DNA of 64,000 nt from Trujillonella endophytica (GTDB lineage: Bacteria; Actinomycetota; Actinomycetes; Mycobacteriales; Geodermatophilaceae): NCBI RefSeq assembly GCF_900110555.1, contig NZ_FOEE01000007.1, positions 186,001-250,000 of the forward strand, in the 5' to 3' direction. The notes beneath the pieces were generated by a model. The model was not told where the DNA came from. It ran no database searches and saw only the letters and a list, made by a program, of their open reading frames with translations. The position numbers and the translations under genes are program-made. How positions within the stretch are numbered: the stretch's first letter is position 1; each line of letters opens with the position of its first letter. Of this stretch, positions 56,296 through 59,167 are shown piece by piece.

Positions 56296-56311
56296 TCGAA
56301 CTGGTGTTCGA
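56296..56311 (-). promoter_or_regulatory. LexA/SOS box of dinB
   Basis: TCGAACTGGTGTTCGA is a perfect match to the actinobacterial LexA palindrome (TCGAAC-N4-GTTCGA). It is 10 nt before the dinB GTG and touches its ribosome-binding site, so LexA could block RNA polymerase or elongation. The box sits in the 218-nt divergent region shared with the repeat-peptide gene. Confidence 0.92.
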
Positions 56312-56503
56312 CCAGATGGGGAGGACAGTACGGCGCTCCGGGCGCCGCGTGCACGCCGGCCGCGTGTCGTGACCGAGCCGTTGCCGACGCGGAGGCGGGA
56401 ACCGGATCTCCGCTGGTCGGGGCCGGTGTGTGAGAGCAGGATGATCGAGGTAAGGCACGTCCTGCGGGCCGCCGTCCGGTGGCCCACGAACGATGGGAGC
56501 AGC

Positions 56504-56833
56504 ATGGCGCTCGACGACGACGACATGACCAGCGTGGCCGACGGTGGAGCCGATGGCGGCGCGGACGGCGGTGCGGACGGCGCGGCGGGTCACGGCCCGT
56601 CCGACGGCGGCGCGGCCGGTGGCGGCAGCGACGGCGGCGCGGACGGTGGCGCGGACAGCGGCGCCGGTGACGGTGGCGCCGACGGCGGTGCCGACAGCGG
56701 CGCCGGTGCCGGTGACGCCGGTGCCGACGGTGGCGCGGACAGCGGCGCCGGCGACGGCAGCGCGGGTGACGGTGGCGCCGACGGCGGTGCCGACGGCAGC
56801 GCCGGTGACGGCGGCGCGGACGGTTCGGCCTGA
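56504..56833 (+). CDS. Repetitive Asp/Gly/Ala peptide (DGGA repeats), candidate substrate
   Basis: A 109-residue protein. A short acidic leader (MALDDDDMTSVA) is followed by about 95 residues built from Asp, Gly, Ala and a few Ser, chiefly DGGA and DSGA tetrads. No signal peptide, Cys or aromatic residue is present beyond one His and one Pro. ATG 56504 has GGGAG 4 nt upstream. Synonymous codons vary freely between repeats (GGC/GGT/GGA, GCG/GCC), so the repeat seems maintained at protein level. Its stop overlaps the likely CTG start of the JmjC oxygenase. Proposed, by inference, as the peptide modified by that enzyme. Confidence 0.75.
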   Translation: MALDDDDMTSVADGGADGGADGGADGAAGHGPSDGGAAGGGSDGGADGGADSGAGDGGADGGADSGAGAGDAGADGGADSGAGDGSAGDGGADGGADGSAGDGGADGSA

Positions 56834-58161
56834 GCTCCTCCCCCGCCGGACAGGGCCGGCCGGTCGATGACCGGCCGGCCCTGCGCCGGTGCACCTCCCT
56901 CGACCCGCGGGTCTTCGCCGAGCAGTACTGGGCCCGCCGGCCGCTGCTGACCCCCGCCGCCGAGAGCGGCGCCGACTTCTCCGACCTGCTCGACCTCGCC
57001 GCCGTCGACGAGCTGCTCTCCCGGCGCGGGCTGCGCACCCCGTTCCTGCGGATCGCCCGGGACGGCGCCGTCGTCGACACCGCACGCTTCACCTCCTCCG
57101 GCGGCGCGGGCGCCGAGGTGGCCGACCAGGTCTCCCCCGACGCGGTCCTCCGGCTGTTCGCCGAGGGCAGCACCGTCGTCCTGCAGGGGCTGCACCGGCT
57201 CTGGCCGCCGCTGATCGAGTTCGCCGACGCCCTCGCGGCCGACCTCGGGCACCCGACGCAGGTCAACGCCTACGTGACCCCGCCGTCCTCGCGCGGGTTC
57301 TCCGCCCACTACGACGTGCACGACGTCTTCGTGCTGCAGATCGCCGGCGAGAAGCACTGGCGCATCCACGCCCCGGTGCACCCCGACCCGCTGCGCAGCC
57401 AGCCGTGGACCGACCACCGCGACGCGGTCGCCGCCGCTGCCGAGGGCGAGCCGGTGATCGACGCGGTGCTGCGCCCGGGCGACGTCCTCTACCTGCCCCG
57501 CGGGTACCTGCACTCCGCCACCGCGCTGGGCGAGGTCAGCGCGCACCTGACCGTCGGCATCCATCCGGTGACCCGGTGGGCCGCGGCCGAGGCCGCGCTG
57601 GACCTCGTCCGGGAGCTGGCCGCCGGCGACCCGGAGCTGCGCCGGTCGCTGCCGCTGGGGGTCGACCTGGCCGATCCCGCGGCCGGGGCCGACGACGTGT
57701 CCGCCGCCCTCGCGGGGCTGCGCGACTGGCTGGACCGGGTGGACCCGGCCGAGGTCGCCGACCGGGTGCGCAGCCGCACGTGGGCCCAGGTGCGCCCCGA
57801 GCCCGTCCCGCCGCTGGCCCAGGCGAGCGCCGCGGCCGCGCTGACGCCGGACACCGTGCTCACCCTCCGCCGCCGGCTGCGCTGCCAGCTGCGCGAACCC
57901 GCCGACGGCCGGGTGGTGCTGATCGGCGGCCGCCGCCGGCACGAGTTCCCGGCGAGCGCCGGCCCCGCGCTGGCCGCACTCGTCGCGACCGGTGAGCTCA
58001 AGGTCGCCGACCTGCCCGGCCTGGCACCGGCGGACCAGCTGACGCTGGCCCGCCGCCTCGTGACCGAGTCCGTGGTGGTCGTGGCCGATGCCGTGCTGCC
58101 CGGCGGGAACCGGTCAGGGCACGATGGGTCCCGTGACGGCGCTCTCGGGACAGGACGATGA
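56830..58161 (+). CDS. JmjC-domain Fe(II)/2-oxoglutarate oxygenase (ROX/NO66-like)
   Basis: A 443-residue cupin. The N-terminal region is RVFAEQYWARRPLLT...AVDELLSRRGLRTPFLRIARDG. The JmjC core has the Fe triad HxD in SAHYDVHDVFVLQ (His160, Asp162) and the distal His228 in GDVLYLPRGYLHSA. A C-terminal winged-helix-like part follows. This is the ribosomal-oxygenase type (YcfD, NO66, MINA53) that hydroxylates protein side chains. No ATG, GTG or TTG exists in frame before 57118, but conserved sequence extends about 75 codons upstream. CTG 56830 overlaps the peptide's TGA by 4 nt, like a GTGA junction. The start is inferred. Confidence 0.78.
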   Translation: MSSSPAGQGRPVDDRPALRRCTSLDPRVFAEQYWARRPLLTPAAESGADFSDLLDLAAVDELLSRRGLRTPFLRIARDGAVVDTARFTSSGGAGAEVADQVSPDAVLRLFAEGSTVVLQGLHRLWPPLIEFADALAADLGHPTQVNAYVTPPSSRGFSAHYDVHDVFVLQIAGEKHWRIHAPVHPDPLRSQPWTDHRDAVAAAAEGEPVIDAVLRPGDVLYLPRGYLHSATALGEVSAHLTVGIHPVTRWAAAEAALDLVRELAAGDPELRRSLPLGVDLADPAAGADDVSAALAGLRDWLDRVDPAEVADRVRSRTWAQVRPEPVPPLAQASAAAALTPDTVLTLRRRLRCQLREPADGRVVLIGGRRRHEFPASAGPALAALVATGELKVADLPGLAPADQLTLARRLVTESVVVVADAVLPGGNRSGHDGSRDGALGTGR

Positions 58162-59167
58162 CCCGGGCGTTCCCGCCGACGTGACCGGCGCGGAGGCAGC
58201 CGGGGGCGCGGCGCGGTCCGCCCGCCCGGCGGGGAAGCTCGACGAGACGCGCTGCTCCGTGCGCGCGGCGAACCGGGGCGACTCCCCCGCCGCGACGGCC
58301 GCGCCCGCCCTCCGCTGGATCCTCATCGAGCAGCCCGGGCCGTGGGGGCGTGACGCGCTGACCCAGTCACGCCTGGACCCGGTGGCGGCCGGTCGCCTGG
58401 CGCAGCGCTCGCGCGCCGAGGGCGTGCGGGTGCTCCTCATCCGTCGGCCGGACGCGCGGGCCGGCCAGTCGGGGCGGCGCTGGGCCTACGTCGACGGCCG
58501 GGAGGGCCGGCGGGGCGCCTGGTGGTCGGTCCGGGAGTCCGACCTCGAGGTCGCCGACGCGCCGTGGGACGGCAGCGTGGGCGAGCCGCGCGAGGACCTC
58601 ACCTACCTGGTGTGCAGCCACGGCGGGCACGACGCCTGCTGCGCGCTGCGCGGCCGGCCCGTGGCCCGCGGCCTGCTCTCCGCCGGCGCGGACGTGTGGG
58701 AGTGCAGCCACCTGGGCGGGGACCGGTTCGCCGCCAACGTCGTCGTCCTGCCGCTGGGGATCTACTACGGGCGGGTGCCCGACGACGGCGCGGACCTGCT
58801 CGCCGCGCACGAGAAGGAGCAGGTGGCGCTGCCCTGGCTGCGCGGGCGCGCCGGGCTCCCGCCGGCCGTGCAGGCCGCCCAGCACCACGCGCGCGCGGAA
58901 CTGGGTCTGCTGGGCGTCGACGACCTCCCGGCCCGGCGGGCCACCCGGCTCACCCCGGCCGGCAACCCCGTGGAGCGCTGGGAGGTCGCGCTGGCCGGGG
59001 AGGACGGCGACGTCGTCGTCGAGCTGGAGTGCCGGCCCACCGAGACGGCGTTCCGGCTGACCTGCTCCGCGACGCACGACGCGCACGCCCGGGTGTGGGA
59101 CGTGCTCTCCACCGCGGTCACCTCGGCCGGCCGGACCGTGACGACCACGGGGCGCCGCCGCCTCTGA
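58124..59167 (+). CDS. Sucrase/ferredoxin-like [2Fe-2S] thioredoxin-fold protein
   Basis: 347 residues. The family signature LVCSHGGHDACCALRGRPVARGL and VWECSHLGGDRFAANVVVLPLGIYYGR holds Cys164, Cys172, Cys173 and Cys194 with nearby His residues, the presumed [2Fe-2S] site of the Apd1/sucrase-ferredoxin-like group. The N-terminal RCSV Cys at about 44 is also conserved. ATG 58124 lies 38 nt before the JmjC stop, so the two genes overlap and are co-translated. It could supply electrons to the oxygenase; this is inference from context. A start at GTG 58133 is also possible. Confidence 0.88.
   Translation: MGPVTALSGQDDDPGVPADVTGAEAAGGAARSARPAGKLDETRCSVRAANRGDSPAATAAPALRWILIEQPGPWGRDALTQSRLDPVAAGRLAQRSRAEGVRVLLIRRPDARAGQSGRRWAYVDGREGRRGAWWSVRESDLEVADAPWDGSVGEPREDLTYLVCSHGGHDACCALRGRPVARGLLSAGADVWECSHLGGDRFAANVVVLPLGIYYGRVPDDGADLLAAHEKEQVALPWLRGRAGLPPAVQAAQHHARAELGLLGVDDLPARRATRLTPAGNPVERWEVALAGEDGDVVVELECRPTETAFRLTCSATHDAHARVWDVLSTAVTSAGRTVTTTGRRRL

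Follow-up and report, generated by a model that had tools for sequence, protein, structure and literature searches.

The JmjC proteins NO66 (RIOX1), MINA53 (RIOX2) and YcfD (JmjC_2, PF08007) are ribosomal oxygenases; NO66 and MINA53 hydroxylate histidine, and the JmjC family also includes the asparagine/aspartate hydroxylase FIH. Here, we describe a locus in a 64,000-nucleotide (nt) stretch of Trujillonella endophytica DNA (Geodermatophilaceae; contig NZ_FOEE01000007.1, positions 186,001 to 250,000; hereafter, the window) that encodes an enzyme sharing with them the JmjC domain, the iron site and, down to the C-terminal winged helix, the overall architecture. In contrast to NO66, MINA53 and YcfD, this enzyme is encoded beside an Asp-repeat peptide and, in most relatives, a Suc_Fer-like protein, and no ribosomal substrate is implied. 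The initial annotation, made from the DNA letters alone, had proposed that three forward-strand genes at positions 56504 to 59167 of the window (repeat peptide, JmjC enzyme, and sucrase/ferredoxin-like protein) form a peptide modification cassette, and each gene was confirmed in its place. Comparative genomics strongly supports the cassette reading. On balance, we consider it probable that these genes constitute an operon that makes and modifies a ribosomally produced, Asp-rich, multi-repeat peptide.

Iron-dependent hydroxylases are known from clusters for ribosomally synthesized and post-translationally modified peptides (RiPPs). These include PbsQ, BpmG (biphenomycin-like), SmaO/SmaX (graspetide), and PesHI, with 3-hydroxyaspartate as product (PMC12257519, PMC13097080, PMC13060819); beta-hydroxylation of Asp in a ribosomal peptide, by enzymes other than this one, has precedent (PMC13097080, PMC13060819). 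A 2025 survey of RiPP recognition elements (RREs) reported that JmjC proteins of PF08007 from fish and algae have an RRE-like fold and that bacterial homologs of about 30% identity occur in RiPP-like contexts; the accessible text mentions no precursor, Asp repeats, or Suc_Fer partner for them (PMC12710340). The locus described here resembles the PbsQ, BpmG, SmaO/SmaX, and PesHI cassettes in pairing a small precursor with an iron oxygenase. As far as the available portions of those reports go, however, the systems are described with neither an Asp-repeat precursor nor a Suc_Fer partner, and the JmjC or cupin enzyme of the pbs and bpm clusters acts alongside further modifying enzymes. The third gene product belongs with the Suc_Fer-like/thioredoxin-like [2Fe-2S] ferredoxins by its PF06999 match and by a domain resembling Aquifex Fd4 (Z score, 13.4). 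The yeast proteins Apd1 and Aim32 are relatives within this group. In place of the HxxxH of Apd1 and Aim32, the window protein has HxGGD or, in some homologs, HxGGC; it also differs from the group in having an additional region at its N terminus and another domain at its C terminus. A full-text literature search, with most subscription papers outside its scope, found no paper on the trio, in agreement with the initial annotation, which knew of no described system of this composition.

Results

The repeat peptide adjoins the JmjC gene in Geodermatophilaceae and beyond

JmjC relatives were detected in 108 of 112 Geodermatophilaceae genomes. When the window peptide itself was used as the query, 70 of the 112 genomes gave a match; by visual comparison, 67 of these lay directly upstream of the JmjC match on the same contig, and the other three were near contig starts (G029, G069, and G074). 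In a class-wide sample of 296 genomes, the JmjC profile matched 96, and in 52 of these there was one match only that reached 200 bits (counted by eye). A peptide query from Subtercola matched 20 of these 296 genomes, and all 20 matches adjoined the JmjC match (coordinates compared by eye).

We then scored the loci by composition of the upstream frame. Under a lax rule, an Asp-rich peptide was called upstream of 127 of the 133 JmjC loci with scores of 200 or more (strong loci). The remaining six (L066, L070, L073, L077, L087, and L205) start no more than 236 nt from a contig start, and three of them (L066, L070, and L087) show part of a peptide. Among strong loci with at least 250 nt of upstream sequence, the rate was 127 of 127, compared to 242 of 2,586 random positions (9.4%). 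The co-occurrence search proposed in the initial annotation, for which JmjC homologs mostly lacking a peptide would have been the adverse outcome, thus returned a peptide at every strong locus with room for one and placed it next to the JmjC match in all 20 class genomes with a peptide match. Relatives scoring under 200 were kept apart as a weak class, in which the lax rule fired at 10 of 14 loci, some of them doubtful (L169 and L188). A stricter composition rule, fixed before counting but after many of these peptides had been seen, was satisfied at 104 of 127 strong and weak loci and by 0 of 3,460 control open reading frames (ORFs). By group, it held for 56/58 named loci, 23/29 top class matches, 17/20 other class matches, and 8/20 weaker relatives. 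The first three groups include 11 loci that fail this rule; 10 of them still have a visible peptide, the exception being L158. One partial JmjC match (L094) and the loci of the family search that were not reoriented (L003 to L031) were left out of these counts. Close relatives are mixed in (44 of the 62 named loci are L032 to L075), so that the counts do not represent independent events.

In a phylum-wide sample of 296 genomes, 24 had a match with an E value of 1e-60 or lower, and 13 of these belong to other classes. One of these 13 loci is cut by a contig end (L205), and in another (L199) an Asp-rich frame ends at the JmjC start; the other 11 have an Asp-rich peptide directly upstream. Most of these 11 carry leaders such as LSDDDIET or VEDEDIVT, with cores of the DGDATDTTDGDA (DGDATD-type) or DADASDADA type. 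Suc_Fer was present in 12 of the 13 loci. Core type (103 DGG-type rows versus 33 others) tracked the enzyme tree, with three changes compared to a mean of 29.7 when shuffled and none of 500 shuffles as low; this tree was built with FastTree only and has several long branches, and the 33 non-DGG rows include the two doubtful peptides, L169 and L188.

Among distant JmjC relatives, L178 has an adjoining small peptide such as EVEDLPEVTSRDVTAGGDTDGTDGSSDFI and an S9 prolyl oligopeptidase gene upstream. On Streptomyces clavuligerus plasmid pF1D18A (L187), the peptide DFVIADNDPSDPPIAIADPDPFDPVI lies by a JmjC relative, with an annotated S9 peptidase and an ABC transporter; this 48-residue hypothetical protein beside the cupin/JmjC gene has an Asp/Pro-rich tail. 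In the weak relatives L178, L175, L181, and L168, the JmjC gene is preceded by a short peptide whose conserved tail resembles VTSRDVTAGGDSDGTDSSSDFI, perhaps representing a separate RiPP-like cluster type.

The repeats are maintained at the protein level

The peptide gene (56504 to 56833, forward strand) was read as an ORF of 109 residues. It opens with an acidic leader, MALDDDDMTSV (about 56504 to 56536, by reading of the sequence), and the rest of the ORF, some 98 residues, consists of DGGA-type repeats with DGGADGSA at the end. The peptide had been described as composed almost only of Asp, Gly, Ala, and Ser, and the count agrees: 43 Gly, 26 Ala, 24 Asp, and 9 Ser make up 94% of the 109 residues. 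It matched no Pfam family, and NCBIfam gave no match for any of the three proteins; in neither collection was a named family convincing for the peptide, and three weak matches to MSCRAMM adhesins were set aside.

When 57 peptide genes were each compared to themselves at a shift of 12 nt, the length of one repeat, the mismatch rate was 0.263 at the first codon position, 0.306 at the second, and 0.514 at the third. The nearest relative of the window locus is that of Blastococcus sp. TF02A-26 (L032; Geodermatophilaceae), whose JmjC protein is 87% identical; over 93 aligned codons, the two peptide genes differ by 25 synonymous and 10 nonsynonymous changes. The repeats are a protein-level feature because mismatches are highest at third codon positions and differences from the Blastococcus gene are mostly synonymous, in line with the earlier argument from codon variation that selection acts on the peptide.

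In an alignment of 19 peptides, the acidic leader is conserved, the repeats that follow differ in number and spelling, and DGGADGSA stands at or near the end in most. The leader of most precursors is roughly [LVI]-x-D-[DE]-[DE]-[IM]-x-T, and a permissive leader pattern was flagged in 115 of 137 called peptides (counted by eye). Microbacteriaceae precursors contain two or three near-identical units of about 22 to 25 residues each. Two features of RiPP cassettes are found here: linkage of a modifying enzyme to its precursor, and a leader followed by a variable core. A linked maturation protease or exporter and a leader-binding RRE are frequent in RiPP cassettes without being required. No widely shared protease or exporter was found among the neighbors of 37 chosen loci. 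The same survey, based on simple gene calling that missed several Suc_Fer genes, found no broadly shared neighbor beyond the trio: the widest cluster occurred in 6 of the 37 loci, all Geodermatophilaceae, and other loci have a few pairs or triples in common.

The JmjC enzyme has the architecture of ribosomal oxygenases and probably a CTG start

The JmjC protein matches PF08007 at 1e-28. The initial annotation had called its HxD...H iron site intact; H159 (57307 to 57309), D161 (57313 to 57315), and H227 (57511 to 57513) are indeed invariant in all 27 aligned rows. The structural model (predicted local distance difference test [pLDDT], 86) matches the JmjC, dimerization, and winged-helix architecture of ribosomal oxygenases. 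It superposes on human NO66 over 388 residues (Z score, 27.9; root mean square deviation [rmsd], 4.8), and across NO66 structures 388 to 393 residues align, through the C-terminal winged helix, with Z scores of 26.7 to 27.9; scores for other structures were 26.8 for MINA53, 21.3 for YcfD, and about 13 for FIH. The C-terminal domain (residues about 335 to 420; 57835 to 58092) takes the place of the NO66 winged helix and is a candidate leader binder. Sequence profile scores were 109 bits for NO66, 94 for MINA53, 49 for a YcfD-like enzyme from Rhodothermus, and 34 for Escherichia coli YcfD. That the profile of a bacterial enzyme group favors human NO66 and MINA53 over E. coli YcfD may bear on the origin of eukaryotic ribosomal oxygenases.

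The JmjC frame is open from 56809 to 58161, and its first ATG, GTG, or TTG, at 57118, falls inside the conserved protein. The CTGA junction, in which CTG overlaps the peptide TGA, occurs in 40 of 41 loci treated as Geodermatophilaceae (the window plus those of L032 to L075 with a called peptide, including L046, whose record is titled Bacillus). In 27 of these 40 loci, no ATG, GTG, or TTG precedes the F..YW anchor, the first conserved motif. Since there is no usual start before 57118 and CTGA is kept in 40 of 41 loci, the JmjC gene most likely starts at the CTG at 56830, translationally coupled to the peptide gene, and extends to 58161. However, the last Ala codon of the peptide is GCC, which itself creates the CTG, and its conservation could therefore have another cause. 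Junctions in other families are GTGA, TTGA/TGATG, TAGTG, or TAATG, with no simple overlap in L062, L083, and L084; such stop-start overlaps suggest translational coupling of the two genes. The statement that the JmjC gene follows the peptide gene without a gap thus stands as to adjacency, with the start corrected to a probable CTG that overlaps the peptide stop. Given this apparently family-wide CTG start, the JmjC gene may be misannotated in public genomes.

The Suc_Fer-like protein is a usual partner

The third protein (58088 to 59167) matches PF06999 with 62.3 bits (cutoff, 34.9; E, 8e-17). This bears out its description as a sucrase/ferredoxin-like protein, while the overlapping start given for it at 58088 is revised, the alignment of homologs placing it probably at the ATG at 58124. 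Its model (pLDDT, 85) contains a thioredoxin-like [2Fe-2S] ferredoxin domain at model residues 168 to 255, which superposes on Aquifex Fd4 over 85 residues with an rmsd of 1.7. The C-terminal part is weakly similar to cystatin-derived affimer scaffolds (Z score, 7.3), and Foldseek alone gave weak matches for the model (best E, 0.011).

Conserved C175 (58613 to 58615), C183/C184, H207 (58709 to 58711), and D211 (58721 to 58723) are likely cluster ligands. The [2Fe-2S] motif of Apd1 and Aim32 is a bis-histidine HxxxH. That motif is not present in the window protein, which has HxGGD, as do most loci in which the motif was found; HxGGC occurs in several Geodermatophilus loci (such as L033, L034, L039, and L058). 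At D211, the place of the second Apd1/Aim32 histidine and a probable cluster ligand, Asp and Cys thus replace one another in nature.

Suc_Fer lies downstream of the JmjC gene in 116 of 132 strong loci and in 0 of 14 weak relatives. For 15 of the 16 strong loci that lack it, the following ORFs were listed: 14 have other ORFs, and L116 has none. In this sample, Suc_Fer is by gene content a usual but dispensable member, and the peptide and JmjC genes seem to be the minimal unit.

Upstream DNA of the operon

An 8-bp hairpin (56466 to 56485) lies in the 5' leader of the peptide gene, and 4 of its 8 pairs are changed on both sides among 37 loci (the window and 36 others); a role as an operator or as an RNA element in regulation is conceivable. 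Upstream of it, a conserved GTGTG...GAGGTA block (56426 to 56452) is possibly the operon promoter. A perfect LexA-type box, CGAACTGGTGTTCG, is found at 56297 to 56310, between the peptide gene and a divergent gene that, from its motif, is probably DinB-like. Boxes of this type occur in 30 of 56 upstream regions, 29 of them from Geodermatophilaceae, compared to 1 of 56 when shuffled. We did not adopt LexA control of the peptide, since the divergent DinB-like gene adjoins the box in the window.

Discussion

These comparisons suggest that the cassette works like a RiPP system, and we regard it as a RiPP-like candidate modification system, with no claim of RiPP membership. Very probably, the JmjC enzyme decorates the peptide, most likely on its aspartates. 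In the proposed mechanism, the enzyme would bind the leader, perhaps via its C-terminal winged helix, and move along the core, using Fe(II), O2, and 2-oxoglutarate to beta-hydroxylate Asp. The Suc_Fer-like protein would keep the iron reduced or act on the product by redox chemistry. Beta-hydroxyaspartate would thus be densely packed in the finished peptide, which plausibly binds iron or calcium. Beta-hydroxyaspartate chemistry is known from siderophores, and the metal-binding guess is based on it. Across the cores, cut roughly as the residues after the leader pattern or as the last 70 residues, we counted 1,912 Asp and 310 Glu, about six to one; acidity alone is therefore not what is kept. Because of this excess, and because some peptides hold no His, Asp beta-hydroxylation is our best guess for the reaction.

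If the peptide is indeed the substrate, the residue modified could instead be the His of H-D-G-G-A-D-G units, with the Asp repeats acting as a spacer or a metal-binding tail. HDGGADG-type units recur in Microbacteriaceae loci and in several genomes of the same order, His is present in 101 of 136 cores, and the fold is that of His hydroxylases. Yet the peptides of L154, L170, and L195 have no His (in the L154 core, every residue after the initial Pro and Val is Asp, Gly, or Ala), only 9 of 33 non-DGG cores contain one, and the window peptide has a single His compared to 24 Asp; we judge this version quite unlikely. The closest solved structures, NO66, MINA53, and YcfD, together with the finding that a JmjC query returns a single match in the window's genome, would also fit an enzyme that serves as the ribosomal oxygenase of the lineage, with the peptide as an acidic regulator, chaperone, or decoy that restrains it or supplies metal. 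Against such a role, core type changes with enzyme clade, and the repeats vary while the short leader stays, as for a substrate; moreover, related JmjC genes adjoin other Asp-containing small peptides, with an S9 peptidase in L178 and S. clavuligerus that suggests peptide maturation. We therefore consider a ribosomal oxygenase with an accessory peptide decidedly improbable.

A classical RiPP, a secreted bioactive natural product trimmed and exported by genes elsewhere in the genome, would account for the near-identical units of Microbacteriaceae precursors and for the prolyl oligopeptidase (L178 and S. clavuligerus) and ABC transporter (S. clavuligerus) near distant JmjC relatives. It has a small but real chance of being correct. 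Against it stand the surroundings of the 37 chosen cassettes, where no protease or exporter is widely shared, and the retention of the enzyme in nearly all genomes of one family, which is more like core physiology. As for the peptide being a low-complexity ORF of a GC-rich genome and no gene, such DNA contains many long spurious ORFs, and the peptide has an extreme composition. Conservation of leader and position across many genera, the codon-position pattern, and the failure of every control ORF to satisfy the stricter rule led us to reject such an artifact, to which we give almost no credence. Two further candidates were set aside: a PADLOC search of the three proteins at E 0.001 gave no match for anti-phage defense, and no relative that would point to phage origin was confirmed in viral_contigs.

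Several observations weigh against an operon for a modified Asp-rich peptide. The detection rule itself asks for Asp, so that counts cannot prove its presence in every core, and the lax rule also fires at the 242 random positions noted above; the frequency of His in cores makes His hydroxylation possible. The acidic leader is absent from some precursors (L149, L151, L153, and L157), L158 and L161 have an Asp-rich nonrepetitive protein upstream and no Suc_Fer, and Suc_Fer is missing from 16 of 132 strong loci overall. Outside Geodermatophilaceae the cassette is distributed patchily, with the 24 matches among 296 genomes of the phylum sample given above. No IdeR-like iron box was found at up to five mismatches in the 56 upstream regions. 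An hhalign comparison of PqqD, as an RRE, with the C-terminal domain gave 2.9% probability, compared to 2.4% and 6.0% for control parts of the same enzyme, and a phmmer search of the PDB with the C-terminal part returned two chance matches; because the PqqD comparison was no better than the controls, no RRE is claimed.

The near-universal presence of the enzyme in Geodermatophilaceae and the absence of a widely shared transporter or protease neighbor suggest a physiological, perhaps intracellular, role for the cassette instead of a secreted antibiotic. More tentatively, and with somewhat greater doubt than belief, we propose that a templated poly-(beta-hydroxyaspartate) peptide, specified by a two- or three-gene operon, could be part of core physiology in nearly the whole family and scattered across Actinomycetota. 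It would then be a metal-binding polymer of ribosomal origin and represent a peptide modification of a new class. If the modification reading is correct, the ribosomal oxygenase family would have a second kind of substrate, a Suc_Fer-like protein would gain a concrete partner, and the cassette would offer a small, self-contained test system. Many actinobacteria would then make an unrecognized modified peptide by means of an enzyme of the human ribosomal oxygenase family.

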